Shown here in pieces: positions 4,863-55,315 of a stretch of 64,000 bases of DNA. The notes beneath the pieces are model-generated. The model was given only the letters and a program-made list of their open reading frames with translations. It was not told where the DNA came from and searched no databases. The DNA comes from Psococerastis gibbosa (taxonomy: Eukaryota > Arthropoda > Insecta > Psocodea > Psocidae): the NCBI GenBank assembly GCA_963971405.1, contig OZ020490.1, forward strand, positions 30,157,464 to 30,221,463, given 5' to 3'. Position 1 is the stretch's first letter, and each line of letters opens with the position of its first letter. A program made the translations under genes and the position numbers.

Positions 4863-6349
4863 TTAACTGTCACTTCCATGCTGCCTTTTCCCATGCTTCA
4901 ACAACGTATCACTGCGCGAAAAACATCTCGAGCATATCTCACACTGGTAAGGTTTCTCCCCAGTATGCGTTCTCATATGAGTCACCAGATGGCTCTTATT
5001 CGCGAAACATTTCTCGCATACACTACACTTATATGGCTTCTGTTTAGTATGTATGCGCATATGCGTACGCAGAATGTTGCTCTGCGCAAAACACTTCAAA
5101 CACACCTCACACTGGTAGGGTTTCTCCTTTGTATGAGTCCTTTTATGCTCTTGCAACGTACAACTTTGGAAGAAACCCCGCAAAAACACATCACACTGGA
5201 AAGGCTTCTCCCCCGTATGCATTCTCACGTGAACTTTTAGACTATTACTGTACGTGAAACGCTTCCAACAAATTTGACACTGGTAATGTTTCTCTCCTCT
5301 ATGTGTCCGTGAATGTTCACTTAGGCTGCTTTTAAATACGTAACATTTTAAACAGTCCTTACACTGGTGAACCTTCCCTGCTGTGTGTTTTGTCAGATGT
5401 GACTTTAAATCAATCCGTTTCTTGAACTCTTTCAAACACTCATTGCACTGGTATAACCGTTTCTTCACTTCCTCTAAACCTTCAGGAGACCCATTGGAAT
5501 CACTTTTCTTCCCAATAGCCACTGTTTCCTTATCGTGAATTTTCGTGTGTCTCTTCAAAGAACTGTCTCGTGGGAAAGCCTTAAAACACATAGTACATCG
5601 AAATAACTTCTCTCCCCTGTGTTTTACCGTATGTGACTTTAAACTACTAGGTTTCTTGAACTGCTTGAAACACACATGGCACTGATATAACCACTTTTGC
5701 ACTTCCTCTTCGTCTTGAGGAGGTACAGCCGCATTACCATCCTTTCCCACTACCACTGGCTCCTTATCGTGCATTTTCATATGTCTCTTCAAAGAACTGC
5801 CCCGCGTAAAAGCCTTAGCACATACAATACACCGATGCAACTTCTCTCCCGTGTGGGTCCTAATATGAACTTGCAAATGGCTACTCTGCGTAAAGAATTT
5901 ATAGCATATCATACACTGGTGAGGCTTCTCTCCAGTATGCGTTGGTATATGCCGACGTAGCTGTCTGTTACTCGTAACGTATTTGCAACAGATGTGGCAT
6001 TGAAATGGAGTTTCCGTGCTGTGACTCATAGCATGTTCTTTTAACGTGGTTTGGTGTCTGAACCTTTTGCAACAAACTTCGCACTGGTAGGGTCTGCCAT
6101 CGCTATGGGTTCTAATGTGAACTAATAGTGCGCCATTTTGGGCAAAACGCTTTGAACAGACGGGGCAAATGTGCGGTTTCTCGCCTGTATGCGTTCGGTA
6201 GTGTCGCTTCAAGTCGTAATTTCTCGTGAACATTTTGAAACAGACTTGACATTCGAACGAGCACGAAATAACATCTCCGTTCGGATCTTCAGGTTGTGGC
6301 GATGGCTCTTCATCCCTATCATGTTTTATCGTTACCTCTGTCACTAATA
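4863..6349 (-). CDS. ZNF-A, zinc-finger exon: 15 C2H2 fingers
   Basis: This is the last exon of a C2H2 zinc-finger gene, predicted to be a nuclear DNA-binding regulator. A good acceptor (polypyrimidine then CAG) precedes 6349. The exon opens with two bases of a split codon, matching the one-base ends of the small exons at 7815-7853 and 9202-9229. The assembled protein is about 517 residues. An acidic stretch is followed by 15 tandem fingers, most with TGEKP-like linkers. Finger 12 reads C-x2-F (CDVF) instead of C-x2-C, so it has lost a zinc ligand. Fingers 6-7 and 8-9 are two copies of one module: a finger, a charged linker of about 22-25 residues starting HDKE, then another finger. No KRAB, BTB or ZAD domain is seen. 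The GTG at 6344-6342 is not a start; this is an internal exon. Confidence 0.9.
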
Positions 6350-7077
6350 CTGAAACAGAAAAAAGTCATTATATCGGATGGGATTTGATTAAAACACCGT
6401 TCGAATACGTCTAGTAAAAAGTATACATTATGATGGAGTAGTTGAATCCGGACTGAGGACTGTGGTCTATCTGGAAGCGTACATCCAAAGGTTTTGTAAA
6501 CATTTGCAGTAGCAATTTTTCTCACAGGCTTAGTAGCAACTGTTTGGGCAAGGACATAGGCACCAATATTCCAACTAAGAGGAGAGGTAGGAGGTATCGC
6601 TGGTGATCGCTGTCAACTCAACTTGGCTTCCCGTTGACAGCGGCATTATTATTGCTTTCCTATTTATACGTTACTAACGTAACGTTAGTAAATTGAAAGC
6701 GTTGTGATGGCCGAAACTATAAATTTCTGATTCACATGTTGTGAGGTCCTGGGAACCAAAAAAAGTGTTTTCTTTTTGGTCTGTCTGCAACTTAATGAAA
6801 TTCGGCACGTAGGTTCACAAAAGTAGTCCAGGTTTTTGTTGTTGTTGTGATAAGTTATTTTCGGGGGTTTTTTTACTCCAAAAGACCACACAACTGACAA
6901 AAAATGCCTTTTCGAAAAAATATTTAATAAAATTTTTATTTTAAATCCGCATAAAAAAATTATAGTGTTTCTGGGGAAATTAGGAATTACCAGTATCTAC
7001 TGCACGCTTTATCAGACGCTCCTGGAACGCAGCCTAATTTCATTGTTCCCAGATGACTAAAGGGGTAGTCAGTTATT

Positions 7078-7702
7078 TGGTTATTGAATGAAAATGGTTT
7101 TATAAGCAATTTAGTAGGCTAAAGATCATAAAAATAATGGGTTGCCTGGAAAAATCCTGGCCAGGCTACCATTAATTCAAAAATCACATTTTTGTCGAAT
7201 TTTCACCGATGTGTTTATCGAAAAATGTTTACACTAGCCATAAGTACTAAGTCTATAGAGTATGAAAACGTAGGGTTGCCTATATTTTTCTTGGCCATAT
7301 ATAGGGTTGCCAAGGTTTAAACAGGTACTAAAAATATAGGTATCTTCACCTAATTGTTTATTGGATGAATTAGACATAGTAATAAGCGCCGTTTTATTGC
7401 GAATACAATGATGTAGGGTTGCCTGCAAAAATCCTGGCCAGAATGGGGGTTGCCGAATTTAAAAAAATGAAATTGTGAACGTACGACAAAGAGATCCGAG
7501 AATAGGTCTCGTGCGATAGACGAAGACACTGTTCTCTAGCTGCTGGTGGCTCAATTCCTGGAAGTAATTAATAAATATCAAAAAAGTGATTTTTGAATTT
7601 TGAATTAATGGTAGCCTGGCCAGGATTTTTCCAGGCAACCCATTATTTTTATGATCTTTTGACTACTAAATTGCTTATAAAACCCTTTTCATCCAATAAC
7701 CA
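7078..7702. mobile_element. Inverted-repeat element with ~120-bp arms
   Basis: The left arm (about 7078-7195) and right arm (about 7581-7702) are near-perfect reverse complements. They share GGTTGCCTGGAAAAATCCTG, CTACCATTAATTCAAAA and GATCATAAAAATAATGGG. The core has further short copies of AGGGTTGCC and CCTGGCCAG. There is no open frame. It lies between ZNF-A exon 2 and exon 3. It looks like a foldback or MITE-type element; I could not define a target duplication. Confidence 0.7.
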
Positions 7703-7814
7703 GATCGGTGAAGGTCGATCTTACTTCGGATCTTAGACTAAAATAAAGACGTTTTTATGCCAAAAAAGAAAAGGGACAGCAAGCAGTTTTTTCAGCCTTG
7801 TGGGCAAAACTCAC

Positions 7815-7853
7815 CATTTTCAGTAGAGTCGATAGGTGGGTTATCGCAATAAC
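7815..7853 (-). CDS. ZNF-A exon 2 (39 nt, candidate)
   Basis: The reading is cag / GT-(12 codons)-G / gtgagt, so it begins with two bases and ends with one, in phase with both neighbours. It encodes YCDNPPIDSTEN between the split codons. The donor is strong and the acceptor tract is weak. It could be an optional exon. Confidence 0.5.
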
Positions 7854-8114
7854 CTGGCCAAGTAACATGATCAACTGCAAAGTAAAGCAAAAGGTTAAGC
7901 TAGGCTACTCCACTGTTAAAAAAGCCTGATAAAAATGCATACAAAGCGGAAGGTTAACAAGCATCCAATTGACAAGATAAATTATATTTTATTGGATTTT
8001 ACAGGATTGTTGTCTTCTGCCTATTTTATACGTTAGTATTTAAGGAACGCTTTGGATGGTCGAAATGTTGAATTCCGAGATTTCAGGAGTCTAAGTTCAA
8101 ATATGCTGCGCTGA

Positions 8115-9201: not shown

Positions 9202-9229
9202 CTGGTTCTTCTTTAACAATAACATCCAT
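9202..9229 (-). CDS. ZNF-A exon 1 (start codon, 28 nt)
   Basis: It reads ATG, then codons for MDVIVKEEP, then a single G followed by the donor GTAAAA. The 28-nt length and wording match ZNF-B exon 1 at 16104-16131. VKEE fits the SUMO-acceptor consensus psi-K-x-E. The one-base overhang fits the two-base start of either downstream exon. Confidence 0.75.
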
Positions 9230-9942: not shown

Positions 9943-10772
9943 CTATAACAAGTCTCCTTCATCTTCTGTTGCATTAGCCTGTTCTGCATTCAATACAACC
10001 TCACACACACCAACCACCCCGCCCTCCTCATGAATTACCGCATGTCTCTTCAAGTTCGACTTACGCGAAAAACATTTTAAACAAACTTCACACTGAAAAG
10101 CCTTCTCCATCGTATGAACCGTTTCATGTTTGGTCAAGTGGCTCCGCTGAGTGAAGCCCTTCGAGCAAATTGCACACTCGTAACACTTCTCTCTCGTGTG
10201 AACATCAAAATGTTTAAACAATTGGCTTTTTTGGCCATAACTGTTACCACAGACGGAACACTTATAAGGTTTGTCGACGCCATGCCTTCGTATATGAGAC
10301 AGTAATGTACTTTTTCGACTGAAACAGTGTGAGCAAGTGGAACACTGAAAAGGCTTCTCTCCAGTGTGCTTTCTTAAATGCCGTTCCAAATCTGCATTTT
10401 TTGCAAATTTCTTGGAACAGAATTTGCAGCTGTTAACAGTCTGTTCACGATGTTCTGATTCTTCATGTATTTTCAATAGTTTTGCTACTGAGAAGCTTTC
10501 AGAGCAGATAGTGCATTCGTAGGGGGTTTCAACGCCGTGGGATCGCATATGAACCACAACTGTGCTATTTCGCGTAAAACTTTTGTAACAAACCCGGCAC
10601 TGGTAGGGTTTCTCTCCAGTATGTGACAGTATATGTCTTTGCAAATCGGAATTTCTTCTAAAATATTTTGAACAGATGTGACACTGATTTGGGCCCATGT
10701 TATGTACATGTATGGCGGTTGGTGGCAATGAGACTCGATTTTCAAGTTCTTCTTTCACTTCCTGTTTCATTA
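9943..10772 (-). CDS. ZNF-B, zinc-finger exon: 8 C2H2 fingers
   Basis: Last exon of a second cluster gene. The acceptor TTTTGTTTTCAG precedes 10772 and the exon opens with TA, completing the split codon left by the exon at 14784-14834. The assembled protein is about 302 residues. The exon starts MKQEVKEEL, with two psi-K-x-E sites, then has eight fingers. Finger 3 has a four-residue spacing between its histidines (HEESEH). Linkers vary (TGEKP, GVETP, GVDKP, TREKC, TMEKA), so this is a less uniform array than ZNF-A. An acidic tail ends ATEDEGDLL. It is probably a DNA-binding nuclear factor; targets are unknown. The two introns are filled with mobile DNA: a CR1-like element and a hAT-like MITE. 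Confidence 0.9.
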
Positions 10773-11349
10773 CTGAAAACAAAAATCATAGTCACAAATA
10801 TATAACATCTTATGGTAAGAGAACCATACCCCACAGTACACATTTTTTGTTATTGAATTACCCAATTCCACAGGTAATACTGATAATTGAGATGTCAAGA
10901 AGTTCAAGAAATGTTGTTCTATACTTTACGAACTACCAAATGGTACGCATTGATTAGGTTAGGCCGTCAACTCGTACCCAAACTTGGTTGAGCCACTCTA
11001 ATGTGCATGCCCGTCCACAGCTACGGGCAGATGGGTCATCTGACCCACCTCGACTGACCCGGAAAAATTGTACTAATTAGGTATAAAACATAATTAGTTT
11101 GAAATTTTTTTTTTTTTAAATAAAAATCAAGAAATTAAAAAAAAAATGAACTTTTTCCAGACTTTTAAGCAAAAACTCGCGAAAACTACAGCAAACTCGA
11201 ATCTCGTTCTCGAAACTCAATTTCTATAAAATCGAAGCGTTGTTTCAGGTTTTACTTTATCCCATATATGCCCCTTCCCCCCTAACAAAAAAACTGTCGA
11301 ATTTTCAATTTTTTTCATTCACTCTTGACCCACCTCATATTTCATTCTG

Positions 11350-13095
11350 CGGACGGCCATGCTCATGTGGACACAGGTTATAAAAAGGAGGTAATAACGG
11401 TAATAAAATATATTAGATCGCGTAAAACCATAAGCGAAGTATTGGAGATAACGGTGAGACGTAGAGCGAAATGGCAATGTCAATTTGAAGTATTCCTATC
11501 CGCGAACAACGTTATAGCCAGTAAGCAATATGGATTTCAAAAAAATAAGAGCACGGTGTCAGCCATAATAGATTGCATTGATCATATCCTTCGCTCACAC
11601 AATCAACAGTTATCCATTCTTGGCGCTTTCCTCGACCTGTCTGCAGCTTTCGATTGTGTTAACATACAACTATTGCTAGATAAACTATACTGGATCGGTG
11701 CAAGGGGACTCCCGCATAACTGACTGAAATCCTATCTCACAGATCGTACCCAATTTGTAGAAACATATAGCAGTCTAACTAAACATAATATTAACCATGC
11801 AGTTGGGGGACACATATTAACAAACAGCCGACGCCTATGCTCTAAAGGGGCTATTTTTCACTCGGAATCGCCCGCAACAATAGCAGGTGTCCCCCAGGGC
11901 TCTGTTTTAGGCCCAATTTTGTACCTCATTTATGTCAATGATATGTGTAATTTAATTTCACAAACATCTTCCATCTCCCGATCTCCGACAACTTCTTCAT
12001 TGGCTACAGCTCCAGTTGCTACTCCAGACATTTTAAAAGAAATGTTTATGTATGCTGATGACACCACCATGATTATATTAGCTCCCACCATAGATGATGC
12101 TGTTACACAATCTACCTCCACCTTGATCAATGTCAAACACCTGTTCGCTAGGCATGGCTTACTACTTAACAATGGAAAAACCAAGTTTATCACATTCTTA
12201 TCTAGACAACCTGAACCGATAAAAATCCCATCATGTAACAACTCTATAAAAACCAGCCCATCCACTAAATTCTTAGGCTTAACACTGGATAAAAAGCTCA
12301 CCTGGTCTGAACACACATTGTTACTCACACGCAAACTGAATTCCAGCTGTTATTTAATAAGGAAATTGGCAAACATGGGCAACCAATATCTGGCGCTACT
12401 TGCTTACCATTCCACGTTTGCGAGTCACTTAGCCTACGGTATAGAAGTCTGGGGAGGTTGCAACAAAACTCTCTCTGACACTTTATTAAAACTTCAGAAA
12501 AAGGTAATTGGATGTATCCTTAAATTATCGATAACTACAACATGCAGAGATGGTTTTAAGCGACTCAGAATTATGACATTCCCCTCATTATATGTCTACA
12601 AATTGCTTATTTGCTAAGCGAAAAGTATCTGTGGGTGATTATGTTCCATCTTATATAAAGCACCGCTACCCTACAAGGCGGACACTTAATCTCCACTGCA
12701 CTGGCTACTAGGAGGAAAGTGGAACTGGCCCCGACTAATAAGAGCAAGTCCTTTTGGAATGTGTTACCCCAGTCCTATAAAGAACAGCCCTACAAGAAAT
12801 TCAAATCCACCCTCAAAGTGCTTCTCATACAAAATGTTTTTTACACAACGGACGAAATAACGGCAGCTATCTCAAGCATAATTTTAAAATAGAATTTATA
12901 AAGACTTTAAAAAGAATTGTGAAAGAATTGTAACTGAATTGATAATGTAACTGTAACTGTAATTAGTGTAATTTGTAACGCGATTTCTTATATTCTGTTA
13001 ATGGGATGACCTAGGTCCCTCATTTAATTTATATAATGAAAATAAAGGTGATTATTATTATTATTGTTATTATTATTATTATTATTATTAAAGGA
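11350..13095 (+). mobile_element. CR1/Jockey-group non-LTR retrotransposon, decayed 3' part
   Basis: RT homology starts near 11420 and the frame is broken at least twice (stop at 11721, a shift near 12617). Recognisable blocks are [11 protein letters not shown] (catalytic block A), GVPQGSVLGP at about 11887, MYADDTTM (catalytic YADD) at about 12046, FLGLTLDKKLTW and HLAYGIEVWGG. The last coding piece ends near 12892, and a tail of ATT repeats follows at about 13050-13090. Microsatellite-like 3' tails are usual for CR1-group elements. It lies inside ZNF-B intron 2, on the opposite strand to the gene. Confidence 0.8.
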
Positions 13096-14783: not shown

Positions 14784-14834
14784 CATCATCATCTCGTAGT
14801 TCAATGTCGTGGAGAGGGACTGGGGAGTCTTCAA
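14784..14834 (-). CDS. ZNF-B exon 2 (51 nt)
   Basis: Acceptor TTATTTTTCAG, then TT, sixteen codons (EDSPVPLHDIELRDDD) and a final G before GTGAGT. The 1-1 phase fits exon 1 at 16104-16131 and the zinc-finger exon at 10772. It is acidic and has no domain I recognise. Confidence 0.7.
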
Positions 14835-16103: not shown

Positions 16104-16131
16104 CAATTTCTTGATTAATTTTAACGTCCAT
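16104..16131 (-). CDS. ZNF-B exon 1 (start codon, 28 nt)
   Basis: ATG followed by codons for MDVKINQEI and one G before the donor GTAAGT. It has the same length and phase as ZNF-A exon 1, which supports both calls. It joins to 14784-14834 without breaking the frame. Confidence 0.75.
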
Positions 16132-17472: not shown

Positions 17473-17515
17473 ATGGGGTCCAAGATAAAAGAAGAGGACC
17501 GTCTTGAAAGTTTAG
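17473..17515 (+). CDS. ZNF-H exon 1 (start codon, 43 nt)
   Basis: ATG, 14 codons encoding MGSKIKEEDRLESL, then one G before the donor GTAAGC. IKEE is a psi-K-x-E site. The overhang joins in frame to the GA that opens the exon at 18848. Confidence 0.75.
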
Positions 17516-18193: not shown

Positions 18194-18340
18194 GGCGCGG
18201 ATTCCATCAACGTCAATAGTTATATTAAATGTTTTTTGACGTTGTAGCAGACATTTTTAGACAGTAGTTTAGTAAAAATATCTGCTACCACGTCAAAAAC
18301 ATTTAATATCACTATTGACGTTGGTGGAAACAGCGGACAC
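18194..18340. mobile_element. Hairpin MITE (PIF/Harbinger-like), short type
   Basis: Inverted arms GGCGCGGATTCCATCAACGT and its partner, with GTAGCAGACATTTTTAGACA around the symmetry centre. The right end is degenerate. It lies in the ZNF-H intron. Confidence 0.65.
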
Positions 18341-18610: not shown

Positions 18611-18761
18611 TAAAAGTTTGAAATTCTATTTAATTATTTAAAACCTTCATAGTCTACAGTTTGAATATGCATGCCTGCAGATGTCGCCCATCCAATTTAT
18701 AGTTGATGTTTTATTTGGCTAATGATCAACAAGAGTGCAGCCGTCTTTAGGAGTTGATTTG

Positions 18762-18835
18762 TTATAGGAAGTAGTGAAAAAGTTGAAGAACTACTTATAA
18801 AATTTGAATTCCCGTCCGATAATGAAATGGTTGAA
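18762..18835 (+). pseudogene. Fossil duplicate of the ZNF-H exon 2 start
   Basis: TATAG-GAAGTAGTGAAAAAG followed by CCCGTCCGATAATGAAA copies the beginning of the true exon 80 bases later, including its acceptor. An internal block is missing and no donor fits, so it cannot be spliced as an extra exon. Confidence 0.6.
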
Positions 18836-18847: not shown

Positions 18848-19614
18848 GAAGTAATGAAGAAGTCGAAGAAGCCCAGAACAACATAAAGGAAGAAGTACTT
18901 ATAAAATGTGAAGTCCCGTCCGATAATGAAACGCCTACGGATGGCGGCGATGATAATAAAGAGGAGGGAAACTTGCGCGATATGTACTCTGACGTGCAAC
19001 AAGGCACCGACGTAAAACCAATCCTCTGCGGCAATTGCAACGAAGCATTTTCTTCACAAGCTACATTAATTCTACACAAATGCAAAACGGTAGAATCAAG
19101 AACTTGTGAGTTTTGTTCTAAAGTGTATACCAAAAAATCTAATTTTCTAATTCATACTAGAACACATACTGGGGAGAAGCCTTATCACTGTCCGATGTGC
19201 CCGAGAAGTTTTACAAAAAATAGTGATTTAAAGCGACATGTTAGAACACATACGGGACAGAGTCCATATCAGTGTCTAATCTGTTCTAAGGGCTTTACAA
19301 ATCTCAGTGACTTGCATGTTCATAAGAGAACTCATATAGGGGTGAAGCCTTTTCAGTGTTTTATATGTACCCGACCGTTTTCCAATAAAATTGACTTAGT
19401 AAGGCATATTAAAACGCATACCGCCGAGAGGCGGCATCAGTGTGAAATCTGTTTGAAAAGATTTAATAGTAGTTATGCTTTGCTCGTACACGTGAGAACG
19501 CATACTGGGGAGAAACCTTTCCAGTGTCAGATCTGTTTTGAACGTTTTACAACGAACAGTGACTTGTTGCGGCATGGTAAAACATGCGTGTGCGCTCTGT
19601 GTTATCTCAGTTAA
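18848..19614 (+). CDS. ZNF-H, zinc-finger exon: 7 C2H2-type fingers, last one truncated
   Basis: Final exon of a plus-strand cluster gene; the acceptor TTTTTTATAG precedes 18848. The assembled protein is about 269 residues. The acidic start carries IKEEVLIKCEV with two overlapping psi-K-x-E sites. Finger 1 is H-x-C type (LILHKC). Fingers 2-6 are canonical, with THTGEKP, TGQSP, IGVKP, TAERR linkers. Finger 7 stops at RHGKTC, with CVCALCYLS-stop replacing the second histidine and any further fingers. The C-terminus therefore looks truncated by a frameshift or a genuine late divergence. It is predicted to be a nuclear DNA-binding protein. Confidence 0.88.
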
Positions 19615-20839: not shown

Positions 20840-21780
20840 CCGATACGGCTGTGACATTTGCAAAAAAAAAAAACATTTTCCCGAAAAGAATCGGTAAAAA
20901 CCATATCCGCATTCACACCAGAGAAAATCTATACAATTGTGAGACTTGTTCAAAGGCTTTCCATATGGGATATTGGTTCTGAATAATCATAAGAGGACGC
21001 ATACGGGAGAGAAGATCTACCAGTGTAACATTTTTTCATGTTATGCACAGTGGCCAATTAAGTCGGCATATGAGAGAGAACCCACGGGGGTGAAACCTCA
21101 CCAGTGTCATCTGTGTTTGAAATATTATGGTAACATAGCTGAACTGTGCAATCACCCAATAACACATACAGGAAAGAAACATAACATGTGCGAATGCTGT
21201 TTGAAAGAAATGTTTCTCTAATATTGATATACTCTGCACATTCATAGAAGAACACACACAGGAGAGAAGCCTCATAGGTGTGCGATATGTTCAAAAGATT
21301 TCGTTAGAAGTTGCAACTTGCAACGGCATATGCATATCCACAGTAGAAAAACGCCCCAGTATCAGTACCAAAAGTGTTTGGTATGTTTTACCAGTAAAGC
21401 CGGCACGAAGATTCACAACTATAAGTACAAGAAAATGAGAAGGCTGACCAGTTGAAAAAGCCTTTTTCACCAAGAAATGCAACTTGAACATTCACAATAA
21501 AATACACACCGGGGAGAAACCACACCAGTGTCAGATCTGTTTCAAAGGTTTCATTAAAAATGGCGATTTACAGAGACATTTCAGGACACAAACACACTAA
21601 AGCCTTACAAACAAAGCCTTACAAGTGCTGTGAATGCTCGATGTCCTTTTGTCAGAAATAGGGATTCAGATATACATAAGACACAGACTTGGGGATCGAG
21701 CAGCCGCTTCGATGTCCTACTTGTAAAAAGACTTTTAAATTATGGCTTACAACGGCATATGCTAAATACATTGTAAGATT
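20840..21780 (+). pseudogene. ZNF-J, decayed C2H2 zinc-finger exon
   Basis: Finger pieces appear in all three plus frames: CDICKK, then [77 protein letters not shown]. Frameshifts and stops separate them, and several ligands are lost. About eight to ten finger remnants can be traced. It is a dead member of the cluster between ZNF-H and ZNF-I, in the same orientation as both. Confidence 0.85.
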
Positions 21781-22374
21781 TGGAAATGGCGCAAAAGTGG
21801 CTTTATGGTTAGTTATTATTTTTTAATCACTTTAATAGGCCGAAGGCAATTTAATGTCCATTGCCAACGATCACATGGATTTCGGCAAACAAAAAAAAAA
21901 AAAACTGACTTGGCAATGAGACAGTCCCTACGCCCTTCGGTACGAGGCAACGACTCTGTACAACGCACTAAGCAAGGACGTAGGCCTACACAGGAACAAG
22001 TTCAAGTATCTCCCCTTAGACAACACTGCTGATAGTAATACAACAACTGCAACATACAAGGCAATTACAAAGGATGAGCTTCACAAATTGCATTAGCATT
22101 TCGTTCAGCTCTTCAGATTCGGAACGTACAATAGTGGCTTTTAGTGCCAATTTTATATTTTAAATGTATATGTACTTTTTTAATTATATTTAGGTATAAT
22201 GAGGATAGTATACATCCGTTTGTAGTCCGTATAGCTAGTAAGAGAAGTAATTTTAAATGTTAGGTATAGATATGGAGTGCTGCTACCCTCACACGCCGCT
22301 GGCATGAGGGGGCACTTCAACTTTTATCATCCTATGTGAAAAAAAAAAAATAAGAAAAATGCACAAGCTTACCG

Positions 22375-23712: not shown

Positions 23713-23732
23713 GCAGCCCTTTCTCGGAATAA

Positions 23733-24098: not shown

Positions 24099-24270
24099 TA
24101 TAACAATGATATCATCAGCCAAGTTGTGTGCTATTATTTAGTTCATAATCTAACCTACCCGGCACTTTTTTATTAGCTTCAGTACTGCGTCTTTTGTTGT
24201 CAAAATAATGTATAAATGTTCAAAATGTATGAAACTACCGCTTAATAAAATATATTGAATATTGTTCCAG

Positions 24271-26049
24271 GAATAGAATTTTTTATCGCGAAGTCTGTAG
24301 TGAAATTTGAGGCATTTATTTCAACAGCTCAAAGAAGAGGGTGACATGAAGCGGTGTAGCAACAGATCTCACAAAAATTATACAGCCCAGCTAGGCAATG
24401 ACTCATTTAAACAAGATTGTAATATGCCATACATATGTAAGGAAAATCCATCAACCGACCAAGATGACAGCTCTCACAGAAATGAAACAGCCAGACCTGG
24501 CAATATCATACCAACAAACGAGAAGAAATATCAAGAAACCCATCAAGCTACAACACCCAATAAGCCATTCCAGTGCCAAGTCTGTTCCAAATGTTTCTCC
24601 CAGGTAGTTCACCTGAAAAGTCACCTAAGAACCCACACTGGAGAGAAACCTTACCAGTGTGAGTACTGTTCAAATAGCTATTCCGATAGCAGCAATTTGC
24701 GCAGGCATATACGAAAACACACAGGAGAGAAACCTTACACGTGTGTAGTCTGTGGTAAAAGCTTCGCAAGGTGGAATCACTATCGGACACATACCAGAAT
24801 GCATACAGGGGAGAAACCTTACCAGTGCAGACTCTGCTCAAAACGGTTTTCGGACACGAGTGTATTAAGCAGGCATAGAAAAACCCATGCTGCTGTCGCG
24901 GTGATATTAGATCCGGCGATGGAGAAGCCTTATGTAGACACTGGTACCATTGAATCGCCATATTTAAAAATGTTAACGGGAAAAATTCAGCCCAAGTGTA
25001 AGACCTGTTCTGAATCCTTTTTTAGCTGCAGTGATTTGCTGATTCATACTTGTAAGCAAGCTGATGAGAATCAAAAACACAATAGATGTTGTTCCACTGA
25101 CGAAAAGGTACCTACGATTAAAGAGGAACTAGGCGAGAGCTCTAACTACCCAATAGATGATGGCGTAGTTGAAGACAATGAAAAACAGATACTAAAACCC
25201 ATTAAAACTCGTTTCACTGACGAAAACGTAACTACAACTGTAGAGGAACTAGACAAGAGCTCCAAGTGTTCAGTAGAGGATGGTGAAGTTAAAGACAATA
25301 AAAACCAGATCCTGAAGCACATTAAAACTCGTTCTATTGACGAAAATGGAACTACAACTGAAGAGGAACTAGAGAGCTCTGAGTATTCAGACAGTGAAGA
25401 ACAGGTTGCAACCAATTCATACGAATGTGATTTCTGTTCTGAAACCTTCAATTATTTCAAAGACTTGGTGAAGCACACGCGTACTGATGTAAGGTTGACG
25501 GTTTCCGAGAATTCATCGGCGTTCGAAAGCCATAAAAAGCCGGTTGGAACGGGACTTAAGCCATACCAATGTGGTGTTTGCTCTGAAACCTTTGGTAATA
25601 GTAAAGACTTGTTAAAACATACGCATACGCACACCGGGTTGAAGCGTTACAAGAGTCCCAACTGTTCAGCAGGTGATAAAAAACTGGCTGGAACTGGACA
25701 TAAGCCATACCAATGTGGTGTTTGCTCGGAAATATTTAAGAACAGTAGAGAGTTGTTAAAACACACGCGTACCACACATTCAGAGCTAAAGCCTTATCAG
25801 TGTAAAGTGTGCCATGAGAATTTCTTCTATAAGAGAGACATGGCGAGACATGCGCAAACGCATATGGGGCAGAGACCTTATCGGTGTGAAGTCTGTCCGA
25901 AAGGGTTCTCTACAAAAGGCGACTTGCAGAGGCATTCACGGACACATAGTGGACTGAAGCCTTTCCAGTGTACTGTATGTCTGATATATTTTTCGCAGAA
26001 ATGTCACATGCAGGCGCATTATAATATTCATAGTGTCGAAAAATCTTAA
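24271..26049 (+). CDS. ZNF-I, zinc-finger exon: 11 C2H2 fingers in two blocks
   Basis: The zinc-finger exon of a plus-strand cluster gene. A textbook acceptor (ATTGTTCCAG) ends at 24270, but the frame opened there (IEFFIAKSVVKFEAF) is one base out of register with the finger frame. Either a one-base indel has hit the exon start or translation begins at the ATG at 24346, giving about 567 residues. The first block has four canonical fingers plus a degenerate fifth (CKTCSESFFSCSDLL). A linker follows, with three tandem acidic repeats of about 36-38 residues; the repeats contain IKEEL, VEELDK and EEELESS and the phrase QILK-IKTR. The second block has six fingers and one finger-sized spacer that has lost its ligands (YKSPNCSAGDKK). 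Predicted nuclear factor. Confidence 0.88.
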
Positions 26050-30970: not shown

Positions 30971-31211
30971 CTATAAGCGACGCATAGACTTTCTAAATAT
31001 CTTATTGTAGCATCGACCGCAGACGTACAGGCAGATACCGTCAATGTGGCAGGTATGCAGATGTACCTTCACGCGGAATGTCTTTCCGCACTGACTGCAC
31101 CTGTATGGTTTTTCTCCCCTGTGGATCTGGATATGCCTGCCCAACGTGCCCGTGTCCGCAAAATAGCGACCGCACTCGCGGCACCCGTACGGTTTCTCGC
31201 CGGTGTGCGTC
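30971..31211 (-). CDS. ZNF-D exon 6 (fingers 4-5 and C-terminus)
   Basis: Acceptor TTTGTTATAG, then G completing an Arg codon split with exon 5, so the intron cuts inside the conserved inter-finger linker (HMR / THTGEKP). Finger 4 ([17 protein letters not shown]) is canonical. Finger 5 ([18 protein letters not shown]) is degenerate, and an extra C-x2-C (CGRC) follows before the basic end FRKSMRRL. G+C content is higher than in the surroundings. Confidence 0.8.
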
Positions 31212-31414: not shown

Positions 31415-31417
31415 TTA

Positions 31418-33615: not shown

Positions 33616-33895
33616 CTCATGTGCCGGTTCCTGTTAGACGTTGAAGGAAAGCGCATGTCACACTCGGAGCACGGATATGGTTTCTTAGTGGCGTGCCTGC
33701 CGACATGCGCGCGCAGGTGTTTTCGCGAGCTGAACCGCTTCCCACAGACATCGCAGACGTACCGCGACCTGTGAGTCAGCATATGGCGCGACAGCGTCGG
33801 TCTGTCGTAGTAGAAGTTATTGCACTGGTTGCAGTCGTATTTGATTACACGTTTCTGGCCTGTATCGTGCGGTAAGCGATTACCATCACCAGTAC
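33616..33895 (-). CDS. ZNF-D exon 5 (fingers 1-3)
   Basis: The main zinc-finger exon of a six-exon gene (exons at 38065-38080, 37881-37973, 37258-37407, 36603-36752, 33616-33895, 30971-31211), all in frame, giving about 309 residues. It opens with GT after GTTACAG and reads TGDGNRLPHDTGQ, then fingers CNQCNNFYYDRPTLSRH, CDVCGKRFSSRKHLRAH and CSECDMRFPSTSNRNRH. It ends AG before GTAAAT. The apparent stop just after HMR is intron sequence. ZNF-D is the only gene of the cluster whose fingers are split by an intron. Introns 4 and 5 carry retroelements and MITEs. Confidence 0.85.
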
Positions 33896-36602: not shown

Positions 36603-36752
36603 CTCGATTAATTTCTGAGAGTGAATGTGCAATAACAACACTAGTTATAGATGGGTCCAACTCGCACTTGACTTCCACCTTCACATTTTCTAGTTTAACC
36701 ACCATTTCAGGCTCAACATCTACTTCTTGTTTTAATTGTAAGGTCACAGCAT
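36603..36752 (-). CDS. ZNF-D exon 4 (150 nt, duplicate of exon 3)
   Basis: CAG / AT-(49 codons)-G / GTAAGC. It encodes AVTLQLKQEV, then VKLENVKVEVKC and ends SLSEINR. It aligns along its whole length with exon 3 (VKLENVKEEVKC, LLSENNR). Three psi-K-x-E sites (LKQE, VKVE, and the overlapping VKCE). Confidence 0.8.
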
Positions 36753-37257: not shown

Positions 37258-37407
37258 CTCTATTGTTTTCTGAAAGTAAATGTGCAGCAATAAGACTAGT
37301 TATGGACGCAGCTTCTCCGCACTTGACTTCCTCCTTCACATTTTCTAGTTTCACCACCGTTTCTGGCTTCTCGTGTACTTCTTGTTTTACGTGCAAGCTC
37401 ACTGCAC
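37258..37407 (-). CDS. ZNF-D exon 3 (150 nt)
   Basis: CAG / GT-(49 codons)-G / GTTAGC. It encodes AVSLHVKQEVHEKPE and VKLENVKEEVKC. It has the same length and phase as exon 4, 505 bp away, a tandem exon duplication. The duplication adds 50 residues without touching the frame. Confidence 0.8.
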
Positions 37408-37880: not shown

Positions 37881-37973
37881 CTTGTGTATCGCCTGTTTCA
37901 AAATCTTGTTCCGACGAATCACTCCAGTTATCTGGAGGTTCAATCTTGACTTCAACATCAGGATACAAGGTAC
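37881..37973 (-). CDS. ZNF-D exon 2 (93 nt)
   Basis: GCTTGCAG / GT-(30 codons)-G / GTAGCT. It encodes TLYPDVEVKIEPPDNWSD and an acidic end. VKIEP is a psi-K-x-E-P site. In phase with exons 1 and 3. Confidence 0.75.
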
Positions 37974-38064: not shown

Positions 38065-38080
38065 CTGTAACGTCTTCCAT
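38065..38080 (-). CDS. ZNF-D exon 1 (start codon, 16 nt)
   Basis: ATG plus codons for MEDVT and one G before the donor GTGAGA. Very short, but it has the same one-base overhang as the other start exons of the cluster and joins in frame to exon 2. Confidence 0.6.
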
Positions 38081-43833: not shown

Positions 43834-45122
43834 TTACATAGCCGAACTCTCACGCAAATGTATATACGAATGCCGCTTCAAAGAACTTTGATACTGAAAC
43901 CACTTGGAGCACACTTTACACTGCCTCTTAACACTAATCTCATCTAGCAGAGGTCGGCCGAAATGCGTCGTCATATGAGCCTGAACACTGGCCTTCTGTG
44001 AGAAGCTCTTGGTACAAATATCACACTGGAATGGCTTCTCCCCCGTATGTGTCCTCTGATGAACAACAAGTCCGCCAATTTGCGGAAACCCCTTTCCGCA
44101 AACCTCACACCTATAAGGCTTCTCTCCCGTGTGTAACCTCGTATGTACCCGTAATAAGCTCGTGTCTGCAAATTTCTTTAAACAAATCATACACTCGTAA
44201 GGCTTCTCCCCCGTGTGAACCCTCTTATGCCTCTGCAGCAACGTATGCAGCGTAAATCGTTTAAAGCAGACGTCGCACTTGTGCGGCCGCGTGTGTGTTC
44301 GCATATGCGTGTTTAATAAATTTTTATTGTAATAATTCTTATCGCAGAGTTCACATTTGAAGGGCCTCTCGCCCGTGTGCATCGGCCTATGATTTACCAA
44401 GTTTGCCTTTGTCTTGAAAAATTTATTACAAATTTCACAACAAAATGGCCGCTCGTTCGTGTGCGTTTGCCTGTGTGCCCAGAGTATACAGTTATCGGTA
44501 AACGACTCCGAACATATTTTACACTGGTAAGGTTTCGCTTCCGTGTGTATTCGCTTATGTTTCAACAAAGTCGGCTCCGTTCTAAAAACCTTTTTACATA
44601 CTTCGCAAGGGTATGGCTGCGTATGTGTTCTTTTATGAATAGACAGATTTGTCTTTGATCCGAAAACTTTTCCACATTCCTCACATGCGTGTGATTCCGT
44701 ATGGGCTTTGCAATGTTTCTTTAACGAGTCTTTCGTCTTGAACGTTTTCTCGCAAACGCCACAAGCGTGCGGACGCTCGTCCGAGTGTACCACCTGATGT
44801 TGCACGACTTCACCTTTAGTTTTGAAAAATTTATTACACACCACACATCCGAAGGATTTTTTATCGGAATGCTTGGAGACTTTATGGTTATTTAATGTTC
44901 CTCTGGTTTTGAAAGCGTTGGCGCATAAATCGCAACCATATGGGCGTGCATTCCCGTGGGTTCGTAGGTGCTGGCGTAGTCCTTTGTCGTTTGCACAAAT
45001 TTTTCCGCATGTAACACACTCATAGCTTACGTCTTGGAGGCCTCCTGCTGTGGAGGTGGAAGGTGGTTGAACTTCGTCGTCTGATATGACCTCCGCCTTT
45101 ACGACCACTATATCATTCGCAT
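43834..45122 (-). CDS. ZNF-E, zinc-finger exon: 14 C2H2 fingers
   Basis: The acceptor TATTATTTTCCAG leads into AT, completing the codon split with exon 1 at 45523. The assembled protein is about 443 residues. It opens ANDIVVVKAEVISDDE (VKAE matches psi-K-x-E), then has 14 fingers. Unusually, several linkers are shortened (THTQP, THTRP, AHTES) and many fingers share the phrase K-x-F-K-T-K (fingers 2, 3, 4, 8). That suggests this array grew by duplicating its own N-terminal fingers. Finger 2 has a four-residue histidine spacing. The protein ends HLRESSAM. Predicted nuclear DNA-binding protein. Confidence 0.9.
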
Positions 45123-45522: not shown

Positions 45523-45565
45523 CCATTTCTTTTTTTACAAGTGCATTTCCGACGTCAATATCCAT
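45523..45565 (-). CDS. ZNF-E exon 1 (start codon, 43 nt)
   Basis: ATG, codons for MDIDVGNALVKKEM, then G and the donor GTAAGA. VKKE fits psi-K-x-E. Same length as ZNF-H exon 1 and in frame with the exon at 45122. Confidence 0.75.
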
Positions 45566-46479: not shown

Positions 46480-47078
46480 CTATGCCATTACCTTGTGCGT
46501 TCTCCTCAAATGACGATTAAGCAAACATTTGTAAGAAAATGACTTCTCACACATACTACATACATGCGGTTTATCCTTCATATGCGTCCCCATATGACGA
46601 TTGAGATTCGATTTCAAAGTAAAGGAATTGCCACACGTACTGCAAGAGTAAGGTCTATCCCCCGTATGCGTTCGCATATGGATATCTAGGCCATATTTCT
46701 GAGTAAACCCGTTTCCACACACATTGCATGTAAAGGGCTTTAAGCCGGAGTGTGTTCTCATGTGGACACTAAGCCCGGTTGGCCGTGTAAAAGCTTTATC
46801 ACACAAAACACACACATACGGCTTAGAAACGGAATGTGTTCGCATGTGGTGCTTGTAGTCATCATAGGTAAAACACTGTTTGCAGAGGTTACACTCGAAT
46901 GGCCTATCGTTTGTCAGTGTATGGGTAGGTTCGGCATGACAGTTAGTTGAATTTCCACAATCGTTTGACTTGTTTTGAGTGCCGACAGGCTCAATTCCCC
47001 GGTCTTTGACATCTTCGGAACCATGTGTAGTCAAATCTTTAGAGAAGTTGCCAGTTTTATCACCTTCAACGCCGGATT
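46480..47078 (-). CDS. ZNF-F, zinc-finger exon: 5 C2H2 fingers
   Basis: The acceptor TTTTGTTTTTAG precedes 47078. The exon opens AA and reads SGVEGDKTGNFSKDL, an acidic and polar region of about 65 residues. Then come five fingers: CNLCKQCFTYDDYKHH (two residues short), CVLCDKAFTRPTGLSVH, CNVCGNGFTQKYGLDIH, CSTCGNSFTLKSNLNRH and CSMCEKSFSYKCLLNRH. The stop follows HKVMA, while relic fingers lie just downstream. The small exon at 47144-47176 joins in phase; the start exon was not found. A frame starting at 47088 is not real because it begins in the intron. Confidence 0.85.
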
Positions 47079-47143: not shown

Positions 47144-47176
47144 CTTTATCGCCTTCAGCACTAATAGGTACAGGAT
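47144..47176 (-). CDS. ZNF-F upstream mini-exon (33 nt)
   Basis: TTTTTAG / AT-(10 codons)-G / GTGGAC. It encodes PVPISAEGDK. It resembles the start of the next exon (GVEGDKTG), with a matching TTTTGTTTTTAG in front, so the two acceptor regions look duplicated. The donor is weak. Confidence 0.5.
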
Positions 47177-48013
47177 CTAAAAACAAAACATTGACCTTCG
47201 TTTGCCGTGGAGTTTATGTGCATAGCCTATCTTTCCCTTATGTCCGTCGCCTAAGGCTGATACAAAGGCCAGTCAAATCCACAGTAACTTATTGGCCCCA
47301 TCTTTGTCTAGTTCAATCGTATATGGAGTGTAAAAACTCGGCTCAGGTTGATGGACTGTGGTTAAATGGAAATTGATCACGAACCAACAAACTTCCAAGT
47401 TCATGGCAGATGAATGAGTTTCTTCTATAGAATAGAGTTCCAACTTCTGGAAAAGTGTTCCAGGTTTTTGGCTTACACGATTCCACATAAAAATAGAGGA
47501 AAGTTTCAAATTGAAACTAATATCCAATGATTCATAGTTTATTCATTAAAAAAAAATAAACTAGACAAAGATTTTTGAACCTGTCAAAATACGCGCCATT
47601 TCATAGATGACGTCACGCTTTTATATAGGGCCTTTTACTCAAAATTACTGCCTTCCGCTTAAGTAAAGATGGATGCAAGTGAGCTAAAGTAGGGTTCCAC
47701 CGGAGAGATGCGACATTCGAGACCGCCAAAACTAATTGTTGAATCCTGTTGCAAAGTTTGCTAAGTATTTGCAATGGCTGGTCATAGGATAGGAGACGTG
47801 GCGGGTGGCCACAGAAATTAAAGAAAATTATTTTTGACGGGAAGTTCATGTCCCATTTCTCTTACATAGAACTCTAGGTTAAGCATAGGGGCTAATGCGG
47901 CCATTTTGAAGAATTTATGCTAGCCTGACGTCCATATTCGAATTGGCGCGTATTTTTTTATTGCCTACTATGGTATAAATAAACTATAAATCTTTGGGTA
48001 TTATAAGGTTATT
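47177..48013. other. Spacer with no recognisable gene
   Basis: The ZNF-F start exon should lie in this or the next spacer; I could not identify it. Only short frames are present. Confidence 0.4.
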
Positions 48014-48361
48014 ATACTTTGGGAATTAGTCTTGATATCAACGAAATATTTTAAACTGACTGAGGAATTCAACAATGAAATAAATTTACAGATCTATTTA
48101 TATATACTTTGGGAATTAGTCTCGATATCAACGAAATATTTTAAACTGACTGAGGAATTCAACAATGAAATAAATTTACAGATTTATATATACTTTGGGA
48201 ATTAGTCTCGATATCAACGAAATATTTTAAACTGACTGAGGAATTCAACAATGAAATAAATTTACAGATTTATATATACTTTGGGAATTAGTCTCGATAT
48301 CAACGAAATATTTTAAACTGACTGAGGAATTCAACAATGAAATAAATTTACAGATTTATAT
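48014..48361 (+). repeat. Four-copy tandem repeat, 86-90 bp period
   Basis: Units begin ATACTTTGGGAATTAGTC at 48014, 48104, 48190 and 48276 and continue through CGAAATATTTTAAACTGACT and AATAAATTTACAGAT. They are almost identical, with a 4-bp longer first unit, so the expansion is recent. Confidence 0.95.
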
Positions 48362-49218
48362 AAGCTTATATTTCCCTCTATAAATTTGTAAGTAAATAAT
48401 CGTCAATTTGAAACGATAAGTCAAACATATGCGATATAAATAAAATGTATGTACCTTATGACACCAGATTTATGGTTCTACGATCGTTGTTTCCTGTGAT
48501 ATTTGATTTTTTACACCCGGGAGGGTTTTCCACCTCCGATGGTCTCTTAATAGCAGAGCTAATACTCCGGTCGCATGGGCTAGAAGAAATGTTCCTCTGC
48601 ATTCTGACACATGTAACATGCAGCCGTCACTATAATCAGGGCCAATCGAAACCATCGACGGCCACATGCTATCTATCAAACTGTAGAGAAATGGATTTTC
48701 ACGCATATGACCTGAATATTAGCGCCACAATTAATACTTTAAATTTAAATTTAACACACGGTAGTCGTAGCAATTTCATGGTATTCACAGGCCGCTTATT
48801 AATGCAATGTACATGACGCAGACCAGTAAAATAAAGGCAAACCTCGGAATTGGTGCTAACTCGAAGTTTTTTTCACAAAAATGTTCCTCATGACATTCTC
48901 TTAACTAAAAGTCTGTAGGTCTAAGAAATCTTGACTTAATTCAAAGTCAAAGGTCTCCAACGTTCCCTTTTATAACGTGCGCAGAAGCGCACAAGCCATG
49001 TTCCATCATCTTCTATATGAATCATCTCCTTAGGTTTGTTTTCATCTTTTGGTTGGAAAGTCACCACAAAGCGGCTACGACTACTATAATGCGGGTGAGT
49101 CGGCTCCCATGGAGCCATAAGAAGGCCTCTCTGGCAATAACAATTCCACGCATTCGGTATACAGTATTTCTTACAAAACGCAGAGTAATGGGAATGTACT
49201 AGTATAAGTTTAAGAATC
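48362..49218. other. Spacer with an unidentified minus frame
   Basis: At 48936-49118 the minus strand reads SRFVVTFQPKDENKPKEM, then IHIEDDGTWLVRFCARYK before a stop. It looks like real or former coding sequence, but I do not recognise the family; a retroelement or a host exon are both possible. Confidence 0.35.
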
Positions 49219-49575: not shown

Positions 49576-50942
49576 TTAAAGCAATTTTTCACTTGCAATC
49601 GGCACAGTTGTATGAGTTTCCAAATGATTATCAAAGGAACTTTTATCGACAAAAGTCTTTTCACAAACATTGCACACATCCGGCTTACAATCAGAAAGCG
49701 AATTTGCGTCCTCACAAGTAACTTGCACAATTTCGTGTGTTTCCATATGTTTATCAAACGCACTTTTTTCGACAAAAGACTTCTCACAAATACCACAAAC
49801 ATCCGGCTTATAATCAGCATACGAACTTGCGTCCTCACAAGTAACTTGCAGAATTTTGTGTGTTTCCATATGTTTATCAAACGAACTTTTATCGACAAAA
49901 GACTTTTCACAAATACCACAAACATCCGGCTTATAATCAGCATGCGAACTTAGGTGGCGTCGAAGACTACTAATACTTGTAAATGAGATCTTACAAACAG
50001 TACACACATACGGCTTAGTACCTGTATGGGTGTTCATATGAAGAGTAAGACATTTTTTCCTGGTAAAACGCTTCTCGCATATACTGCATATATGAGGCGA
50101 ATCTCCCGTATGTCCCCGCACATGAGCATCAAGGTCACTTTTGTTTGCATACGCCTTTTGACAAATACCACACACAAACGGTCTCTCCCCAGTATGAGTT
50201 CTCACATGAAGGGTAAGACATTTTTCCCTGGTAAAACCCTTTCCACACATACCGCACACGAACGGTTTCTCCCCCCTATGTGAACGCATATGAGCATCAA
50301 GGTCCATTTTGTTTACATACGACTTCTCACAAAGTATGCACGTATGAGTCTTATCACCGGTATACGCCCTCTTAAGCCCATAATGTGACGCAACATGACG
50401 ATTCAGGTGACTTTTCTGAGTAAATGCTTTCTCGCACATACTGCAAACGTGCGGTTTCTCCTTTGAATGTATCCTCATATGGTAATTAAGGTAATGTTTC
50501 AGGGTAAAAGTCTTTGGACACAGTGTACACGCAAAGGGCCTCTCTCCTGTGTGAGCTTTCATATGATTATCCCATTTTCCTTTGAGTGCAAAGGTTTTAT
50601 CGCATATTTGGCACGCATAAGGTCGTTCCCCCGTGTGAGTCAACATGTGAGCGTTAAGGCCGCCTCGCTGGGTAAAGCCCTTCTCACAAATAGTGCACAC
50701 GTGTGGTTTCTCCTCGGTATGGGTGTACATATGAATGTCTAGGCTACGTCTCAGGGCGAAACACTTTGCACACACACTGCAGACGTACGGCCTATCCACT
50801 ATTGGACGATTAAGGTGGCAGCTCTGGGTTAAATCCTTCTCATTGACATTGCGCAGGTGTTGCCCAGTATCTGTTGTTATTTCTGCGTTTAGAGCGCTTT
50901 CCTTGTAAAATGATTTATCACTTCTCAGGTCGCCGTCCTCTC
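49576..50942 (-). CDS. ZNF-G, zinc-finger exon: 13 C2H2 fingers, last three in 41-residue repeats
   Basis: Acceptor GATTGTTTCAG ends at 50943, and the exon opens GA, in phase with 52957-53043. It reads GEDGDLRSDKSFYKES, about 50 polar residues, then 13 fingers. Fingers 1-10 are ordinary (TEEKP, TGERP, SKEKP and similar linkers). Between fingers 5 and 6 there is an insert, RAYTGDKT. Fingers 11-13 belong to a tandem unit of 41 residues (123 bp): DVCGICEKSFVDKSSFDKHM, then a linker with QVTCEDA and a D-x-KP end. They are nearly identical in DNA too. The protein ends VPIASEKLL. Frames starting at 51090 run through the intron and are not real. Predicted nuclear DNA-binding protein. Confidence 0.9.
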
Positions 50943-52956: not shown

Positions 52957-53043
52957 CACCATCAGAGCAATCATCATTTTTAACTCCATGAATGCCTTCC
53001 TCAACAGGCTCTTCCTTCACTCGAATATTGCTGCTCATCACTT
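52957..53043 (-). CDS. ZNF-G middle exon (87 nt)
   Basis: CTACTTTCAG / AA-(28 codons)-G / GTAAGT, with strong sites on both sides. It encodes VMSSNIRVKEEPVEEGIHG and an acidic end. VKEEP is a psi-K-x-E-P site. In phase with both neighbours. Confidence 0.8.
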
Positions 53044-53701: not shown

Positions 53702-54068
53702 TGTTGTTTCCAACGCCTGTTTTCAGCATTTCTACTTTAAGCAACCCTTTCAGCCTGGCGGGGGGAGTGAGTCTGTTAACTTGAGGCACCCTAAGGGCAG
53801 ACTCTTTCTCCTCGGGGGAAAGGGGAGTTGACTGACAGGGTTGACCACCTGATTATAGGGGATTCCGAACCACTTGGGGAACATGGTAAAGTCACACGAT
53901 TAAAGCAGAGGTGACCAGGACTCGACACGCACGTAAACTGATTGGTATGGTCTCAGCGCGTTATCATGTCCAACCATGTTCCCCTGCCAACGCTGGGCAC
54001 ACCACCAAGTTTTCCGCAGTTTGAAACATGCTCAGCTCTCATGGATTCAACATGGTAAGGCCCATCGC
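53702..54068 (-). mobile_element. SINE-like element S2, copy
   Basis: The plus strand reads GTTGTTTCCAACGCCTG ... GATTCCGAACCACTTGGGGA ... AGGTGACCAGGACTCGACAC ... TTCAACATGGTAAGGC. The family's AAC-type 3' tail is at the left end, so the sense strand is minus. Confidence 0.75.
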
Positions 54069-54139
54069 ATAATAAATAAATAACTTTAAAAAATTAATAT
54101 ATGTATAGATATATATATTCAATTGACTGAGGTTGAAGA

Positions 54140-54425
54140 GGCTACCTCCTCGTTAACATAAATTAGAGAATCAAGGACATTTAGGATTTGGCGGAATTGA
54201 AACCCACGAATTATGACTTATTGGGGATTTTCCCCCGGTCGCATATACATTCATATTCACGTAGTATGTCGAGGGTTTCTATGTAACAGCAAAGGCTTTG
54301 ACGGCCGGAGTCGAATGAAGAACCAGTAGAATCCGGGCTGATGGGCCGTGGTCGAAATGAAAGCGAACTTCCAAACGTTTCGTCAACATCTGCGGTTGAC
54401 ATCTTCAGTGGAACTGCGTAGACTT
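54140..54425 (-). repeat. Repeat family P, copy 1, hammerhead-like core
   Basis: On the minus strand CTGAAGA (54408-54402), U, GTCAAC (54400-54395), loop, GTTGAC (54387-54382), GAAAC (54381-54377). The stem is fully complementary here (GTCAAC/GTTGAC), while copy 2 has GTCGAC/GTTGAC with a G-U pair. A B-box-like GGGTTTCAATTCC lies near 54195 on the minus strand. A frame with DVDETFGSSLSFRPRP stays open in copies 1 and 2. Confidence 0.6.
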
Positions 54426-55225
54426 CTAATATTGTATCTCGGAGGCTCAGCAGCGACTGTGTGGGCAGGGGGATGTGCTCTGATATTTATACTAAGCTGC
54501 GGGGTGGTTTCTATGCCTTACGAAGCTATTTCCTTCCCCCTGTTTGTTACACACTATAGTTCAGACAATACCCTCAGGTAGGTCCTTTATTGCTCTTCGT
54601 TTTTTTTGGCACTGTTATCCGAAACCAGCAGCAGCCCTACTATGCTATCGAGAAATCTATCGAGAATCATTTAATCCTAATCACGGTTAAGTTAATCTGT
54701 AAGCGGCATAGTATAGCAGCAGACTACTGGAACCCGGACGGGCGGACGGCCATCATCATTTCCTAGTCAGAGGATGGGGCTCTATTTCACAACAACAAAA
54801 CAACAGCAAGGAACAATTCCCTTAATAAGTGACCAAGTAACGGTCTAAAATTGCATTCGTGCTTATTCTGAAAACTAGCAGCTGCTCATTGTTACATGTT
54901 AAACATAGAAAAATACTTCAGTGTTGTATAAATTTCCAGATGCCGCCAACTATACAAGTCTTATAAACATAAAACTACTAGTAAATCTTAAGCCCCCATA
55001 TACAAATGTCTTGACTTGAAGGTAGTTTTAAATAAACATCTTCCATTGCATTTCTCCATTATATTTTTTAAATGTATCATTTTAACAAGGTTTGGCACAA
55101 GACAGTGAATATCTATTTCTGGTTTTGTTGACCTTGTTTATTGATGTTATATCGAAACCGAAAAACAAGTATTGTATTCCAAATCCACCCTAGCCCATTG
55201 TTATTTGTTGTTACTTGCTACCCAC
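54426..55225. other. ZNF-G intron sequence, nothing assigned
   Basis: No recognisable repeat except a possible degenerate tRNA-like head near 54705-54770. Confidence 0.35.
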
Positions 55226-55315
55226 CATTTTCATTGTCTGTATTTTGCAAGTTGCTCCAGTCGTCCATCACTTCAACCTTGACTATAATGTCTTCATCTT
55301 CAATGATGGGACCAT
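55226..55315 (-). CDS. ZNF-G upstream exon (90 nt)
   Basis: TATTTTTGCAG / AT-(29 codons)-G / GTGGGT. It encodes GPIIEDEDIIVKVEVMDDWS and ends QNTDNEN. VKVE fits psi-K-x-E, and the DDWSN wording resembles ZNF-D exon 2 (PDNWSD). In phase with 52957-53043. No certain start exon; a frame at about 55458-55480 (MYSISIN, donor GTAAGT) would fit in phase but could be chance. Confidence 0.75.

Follow-up and report, generated by a model that had tools for sequence, protein, structure and literature searches.

The window analysed here, 64,000 nucleotides (nt) of the psocid Psococerastis gibbosa (C15:30157464-30221463), lies inside a megacluster of C2H2 zinc-finger genes in a genome of 409 Mb and 68 contigs. 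In the typical gene predicted there, the fingers would sit on a single exon that opens in phase 1, and the small exons ahead of it would all be phase 1 at both ends. Sequence analysis of these predicted genes establishes the phase design, its recurrence, its content of psi-K-x-E motifs and the tandem duplication of its exons. We consider it probable that these genes are a tandemly expanded arthropod C2H2 family with neither KRAB nor ZAD, in which the N-terminus would be a variable series of SUMO-acceptor peptides. An earlier note on this stretch (the original prediction) had described a zinc-finger cluster built from interchangeable phase-1 mini-exons; its observation is partly confirmed, in that the core is real and holds for the whole cluster, and its interpretation is partly supported. 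The SUMO-motif content of the longer mini-exons and the acidic character of the short ones are new relative to it.

Phase-1 exons ahead of the zinc fingers

Seven of the eight gene-like finger exons in the window (those of genes A, B, C, D, E, F and G, listed below) open in phase 1, that is, with two bases of a codon, as the original prediction had held for at least seven genes. For comparison, 20 loci of approximately 10 kb each were taken from C15 off a list of zf-C2H2 profile matches, blind to phase and motif (names such as L009 denote fetched genomic loci outside the window). Note that many of the matches listed fall in C15 28.6-31.9 Mb and that, since 150 of 4842 first-look candidates were scored, the profile search gives a lower bound. 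Phase 1 was the best acceptor in 26 of the 27 finger open reading frames (ORFs) scored at the C15 loci (29 were found and two went unscored), with L013 as the lone phase-0 case. When five near-identical finger-exon heads are counted once, the window and the C15 loci together have phase 1 in 29 of 31 finger exons (binomial probability 3e-12 at an expectation of 1/3 and 2e-7 at 1/2).

A second zinc-finger cluster, at C20:19.15-20.09 Mb, follows another design: in 5/5 ORFs (L031 and L035-L038) the acceptor is phase 0 and lies exactly 21 nt ahead of the first finger. Elsewhere the phases are mixed: phase 1 at two C2 loci and on C3, phase 0 on C19, phases 0, 0 and 2 on C13, and two phase 0 and one unscored on C14. 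The uniform phase 0 on C20 and the mixture elsewhere argue that phase tracks the gene family and is not an artefact of the scoring. Within C15, L010, L017 and L018 (C15:29.57-29.63 Mb) stand apart as a subgroup whose phase-1 finger-exon heads are long, with about 340-675 nt ahead of the first finger; psi-K-x-E is absent from the first 40 amino acids in 5/7 of these heads, and a search for start exons at the three loci found none.

We then scored internal exons in nine phase classes on both strands of 35 upstream regions (176,972 bases). At a score threshold of 4.5, class 1-1 held 15 motif-bearing candidates and the other sense classes at most five each; the class 1-1 controls gave none on the antisense strand and none in each of 20 dinucleotide shuffles. 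Because the motif hypothesis arose in the window, the count was redone on the 27 C15 upstream regions outside it, where 11 motif-bearing candidates fell in class 1-1. None of the remaining eight sense classes held more than two, their sum was six (five of these overlap the same exons), and the antisense strand had none in class 1-1 and five in all classes. Two of the 11 are ambiguous, one because it contains fingers of an upstream gene and one because it overlaps a start exon, and two more (at L022 and L026) are recent copies of each other. Start exons ending in the motif numbered nine in phase 1, in nine regions, with none antisense, as compared with three in phase 0 and two in phase 2, three of these five being alternative donors of phase-1 exons; the antisense total across phases was one. 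L015 contributes a further phase-1 start exon, MDVRVKQET.

A start-exon pattern was found at nine places in the whole genome and at none in a reversed control. Four of the places are on C15 (one being gene A and one lying in L014), two on C2 and three on C19. Three of the nine were opened, among them both C2 places (L046 and L047), where motif-bearing 1-1 exons and fingers follow within the next 6 kb. L046 has an additional acidic exon of 51 nt, YFDVPVVDVDFSCAIE; its fingers sit in a short ORF, and this copy may be broken. The finger exon of L047 has a phase-1 acceptor as its best, albeit a weak one. The same exon design, for which a genome-wide search had been suggested, recurs on C15 and on C2.

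Peptides encoded by the upstream exons

Three kinds of N-terminal piece recur: a start exon, a longer exon with psi-K-x-E and a short acidic exon. Start exons with the motif are 28-49 nt long (for example MDVIVKEEP, MSICIKEEV and MEGTDSIIIKEEI) and often take the form MD..[VI]K[EQ]E|G. The longer mini-exons, of 84-156 nt, carry psi-K-x-E and number from zero to several per gene; when seven of them, picked by eye from the output of length or similarity filters, are aligned, the only invariant residues are the K and the E of psi-K-x-E. The short exons, of 45-63 nt, are acidic and have no psi-K-x-E. Fourteen short 1-1 candidates have a D+E content of 0.24, as compared with 0.00-0.11 in every other class on either strand, and an alignment of seven short exons has zero invariant columns.

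The finger-exon heads, the phases and the short exons were selected without a motif filter. Sixteen of the 34 finger-exon heads contain [VIL]KxE, 26 times in all as compared with 4.1 in shuffles, so that the putative SUMO-acceptor motif lies above chance there; in the 34 finger arrays it occurs 0 times, against 6.9 in shuffles. Moreover, psi-K-x-E is often trailed by an acidic or Ser-acidic stretch, as in the head VKCEVISEDEE. That some of the short acidic exons (VPVVDAE at L015, VPVVDVD at L046) might be SUMO-interacting motifs is speculation, and only some of them fit a consensus of this kind.

Exon duplication, proposed function and alternatives

The small exons behave as symmetric 1-1 modules, with introns of the same phase on both sides and tandem duplication in frame. 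Tandem exon pairs were found in gene D (150 nt), L009 (93), L011 (90), L012 (156) and L021 (45). The original prediction had a gene called ZNF-D, most likely the minus-strand gene at 38080-30971 (gene D here), duplicating an exon, and the 150-nt pair is indeed a true tandem duplicate. Its copies share 65% of their amino acids, with a nonsynonymous divergence (dN) of 0.19 and a synonymous divergence (dS) of 0.60 (dN/dS about 0.3); the 5' flanks match at the shuffled level and the 3' flanks at the upper edge of 30 shuffles. The low dN relative to dS, with flanks near the shuffled level, suggests that the pair is under constraint at the protein level. The L011 pair has dN 0.40 and dS 0.76, and the L021 pair dN 0.30 and dS 0.40. 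As for the modular N-terminus that had been proposed, symmetric phase-1 exons and their duplication bear it out, but no exchange between genes was seen in a genome search with the 150-nt peptide of gene D, which returned only its own two copies. The fetched exons closest to the 90-nt exon of gene G belong to L022 and L026, and the same two loci hold the finger exons that best match that of gene G. This likeness fits plain gene duplication, although weakly, since several other genes also have their best match in L026.

The genes form an expanded tandem cluster in which a Pfam scan of four of the seven window models (A, B, D and G) found no known domain besides the fingers, no domain at the N-terminus and neither KRAB nor ZAD. 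A genome search for KRAB gave 0 matches, with the caution that 14 control genomes gave none either. ZAD (zf-AD) had 22 genome matches, none of them within C15 28.6-31.9 Mb. In the model that we favour, the fingers would select DNA sites, the lysines of psi-K-x-E would be SUMOylated, and the N-terminus, probably disordered, would present one to several SUMO acceptor sites. SUMO would then recruit SUMO-binding co-repressors to the sites chosen by the fingers, such that this N-terminus would fill the role that KRAB has in tetrapods without a folded domain, and the phase symmetry would allow exon duplication to alter the site count while the reading frame is kept. A more specific proposal is that KRAB is replaced by a countable SUMO series with one site per phase-1 exon, where the number of exons included (through evolution and perhaps alternative splicing) sets the strength of the repressor and the fingers retarget independently; this we put forward as a possibility that is open to considerable doubt.

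Several points weigh against a series of SUMO acceptors. The motif psi-K-x-E is short; 18/34 heads have no [VIL]KxE, including those of D, F and G in the window and of L022, L023, L026 and L027, and the start exons of B and D have no psi-K-x-E. With the motif filter removed, class 1-1 held 31 candidates in the 35 regions at a score of 6, with 5-16 in the other sense classes and 12 in antisense class 1-1, and from 31 sense against 12 antisense perhaps about a third of these 1-1 candidates are false. The one C19 place that was opened had no fingers within 6.4 kb. A motif filter had gone into the choice of the start exons and of some of the mini-exons for the composition count, which gave these exons and the short ones a net charge of about -15 to -29 per 100 amino acids. 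The young pairs of L009 and L012 have dN at or above dS and give no support for constraint. Counts across genes are not independent, since the genes are mutually related. The gene models were rebuilt with a generic splice-site matrix, and models and exons alike are candidates predicted from sequence. Finally, a Drosophila screen saw no significant excess of SUMO motifs among repressive domains (PMC9890238).

Some of these points are also what would be expected had the phase-1 design simply been inherited from one ancestor that was multiplied in tandem, with unconstrained acidic linkers as N-termini, psi-K-x-E as a functionless leftover and a symmetry that was never selected. The genes are related, with finger-exon matches of about 33% to 91% identity between them, no mini-exon was seen moving between unrelated genes in the search with the gene D peptide, and both the L009 and L012 pairs and the 18 heads without the motif are in keeping with such an origin. 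Against it stand the K and the E, which persist where the aligned mini-exons otherwise diverge, the motif counts, which are far above shuffles in the heads and nil in the finger arrays, and the dN and dS of the gene D pair; we rate it as rather unlikely.

Activation domains are typically acidic, disordered peptides with scattered hydrophobic residues. The start, mini- and short exons are strongly acidic, and their hydrophobic-dotted peptides could accordingly be read as transcription activation domains in which the lysine motif is incidental or restrains activation. In the aligned longer mini-exons, however, it is the psi-K-x-E lysine and the glutamate at +2 that do not vary, not a hydrophobic-acidic pattern as such, and we regard this reading as improbable. 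We give very little credence to the idea that the mini-exons are chance open frames and that translation begins within the finger exons: no start exon was found for F and G, and the gene at 24328 does not have the design, but the phase-class, antisense and shuffle controls, the 65% identity of the two 150-nt exons with dN well below dS, and the blind recovery of the layout on another chromosome all speak against it.

Several known systems resemble these genes in part. KRAB exons are also phase 1. The KRAB genes of tetrapods are likewise clustered, fast-expanding C2H2 genes in which small exons ahead of the fingers encode the effector region; here, by contrast, the upstream exons are short, variable in number and either acidic or with psi-K-x-E, and they encode no folded box. 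The KRAB A and B/b/C boxes lie on separate exons that are often alternatively spliced (PMC2443715); KRAB genes are thus modular in their exons too, and the contrast with a fixed KRAB N-terminus drawn in the original prediction is inaccurate. ZAD genes, too, are a large arthropod C2H2 family and are present in this genome, but the cluster interval contains none of the 22 matches and the four scanned proteins have no ZAD. A further comparison is with the APEZ/ZF271-like genes of pea aphid and milkweed bug, lineage-specific insect C2H2 expansions without KRAB, which in the milkweed bug are partly in tandem clusters with probable pseudogenes (PMC6444547). These are reported to have no domain beyond the fingers, and clustered genes among them to differ in exon number and size; the section on them in PMC6444547 mentions neither a phase-1 mini-exon design nor a SUMO motif. 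The available part of PMC2865497 gives no exon phases. The exon design is not described in the titles and abstract openings returned by our literature searches, which leaves its absence from the literature unproven.

According to the section of PMC6444547 on the expanded hemipteran families, these have neither KRAB nor any other domain besides the fingers, and insects have no direct KAP-1 orthologue. For human repressive domains, a role of short SUMO sites in their function has been implied (DelRosso et al., cited in PMC9890238); the genes described here would differ from such short-peptide repression in placing the motif on symmetric exons of its own, with more or fewer of these exons from one member of the family to the next. 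If the N-terminal exons are SUMO-acceptor modules, they would offer a concrete, testable link to the repressive chromatin machinery and, if the proposal is true, an effector region whose strength shifts stepwise by exon duplication.

Gene models and other features of the window

The predicted exons and genes are as follows.

4863..6349, minus strand: gene A finger exon, phase 1, VTIKHD in the head
7815..7874, minus strand: gene A candidate short exon, 60 nt, acceptor 5.3, unproven
9202..9229, minus strand: gene A start exon, 28 nt, MDVIVKEEP plus one base; DNA relatives at L015 and L026; refound by the genome-wide start-exon pattern
9943..10772, minus strand: gene B finger exon, phase 1, head MKQEVKEE
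14784..14834, minus strand: gene B short acidic mini-exon, 51 nt, EDSPVPLHDIELRDDD, acceptor 5.0, donor 6.1; like the class at other loci
16104..16131, minus strand: gene B start exon, 28 nt, MDVKINQEI plus one base, no canonical psi-K-x-E
17473..17515, plus strand: gene C start exon, 43 nt, MGSKIKEEDRLESL plus one base
18758..18829, plus strand: tandem duplicate of the gene C finger-exon acceptor and head, score 104.5 against 57.5 for the best of 300 shuffles
18848..19614, plus strand: gene C finger exon, phase 1, head with IKEE and IKCEVPSDNE
20901..21850, plus strand: zinc-finger pseudogene, finger pieces in differing frames with stops between
24328..26049, plus strand: zinc-finger gene off the design, best acceptor phase 0
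30971..31211, minus strand: gene D second finger exon, phase 2
33616..33895, minus strand: gene D first finger exon, phase 1 acceptor, phase 2 donor within a finger linker
36603..36752, minus strand: gene D mini-exon, 150 nt, copy 2, the tandem duplicate
37258..37407, minus strand: gene D mini-exon, 150 nt, copy 1, several psi-K-x-E
37881..37973, minus strand: gene D mini-exon, 93 nt, VKIEPPDNWS inside
38065..38080, minus strand: gene D start exon, 16 nt, MEDVT plus one base, donor 7.1
43834..45122, minus strand: gene E finger exon, phase 1, head VVVKAEVISDDE
45523..45565, minus strand: gene E start exon, 43 nt, MDIDVGNALVKKEM plus one base
46480..47078, minus strand: gene F finger exon, phase 1
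47144..47176, minus strand: gene F candidate 33-nt exon, weak donor, imperfect tandem copy of the finger-exon head, score 69.0 against 55.0 for the best of 300 shuffles
49576..50942, minus strand: gene G finger exon, phase 1
52957..53043, minus strand: gene G mini-exon, 87 nt, with IRVKEEPVEEG
55226..55315, minus strand: gene G mini-exon, 90 nt, with IIVKVEVMDDWS; 83% DNA match over 35 nt to the 84-nt exons of L022 and L026

A start exon that leaves one base of a codon, claimed for all seven genes, was located in five (A, B, C, D and E); searches upstream of F and G found none. Genes C and E show a start exon and a finger exon only, and the finger array of gene D is itself interrupted by a phase-2 intron. 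Eight of the nine mini-exon lengths given in the original prediction were located. In those of 51 nt (B), 87 and 90 nt (G) and 93, 150 and 150 nt (D) the splice sites are usable and the 1-1 frame is open, but two others are doubtful: the 39-nt exon of A (7853-7815, acceptor 2.2) is nested in the 60-nt alternative with its acceptor of 5.3, and the donor of the 33-nt exon of F is weak. The other 39-nt exon could not be located, the only candidates of that length being low-scoring. The lengths in multiples of three, noted in the original prediction, were rejected as separate evidence, since they follow by definition for any exon that takes two bases in and leaves one out.

We rejected the 33-nt exon of gene F and the upstream copy in gene C as clean mini-exons because they are local duplicates of the finger-exon head; the latter is not a symmetric exon and is probably inert. 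Such duplicates of the head, acceptor included, are a plausible route to new exons. The gene at 24328 was likewise rejected as a follower of the phase-1 design on account of its phase-0 best acceptor, and no phase-1 start exon was found upstream of it. The single pseudogene that had been reported in the cluster is borne out by the copy at 20.9-21.8 kb. At the C-terminus of gene G (49576-50000, minus strand) there are three similar finger-plus-spacer units of about 41 amino acids each, and upstream of gene F, at 48004-48402, a unit of roughly 85-90 nt is repeated in tandem.

Other ORFs of the window include three on the plus strand (34807-36489, 11286-12617 and 58968-60086) that we take to be pieces of non-LTR retroelements, the first of which lies within an intron of gene D, between the last mini-exon and the first finger exon. 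A fourth (2514-3197, plus strand) presumably encodes a MATH-BTB (speckle-type POZ) protein. Palindromic fold-back elements occur at 22812-23254, 23732-24099, 18196-18335 and 31272-31415, with outer arms of 41-133 nt that are 87-96% complementary, and pieces that resemble them lie near 4.0-4.4, 8.1-8.5, 41.5-42.0, 43.3-43.7 and 57.2-57.5 kb.

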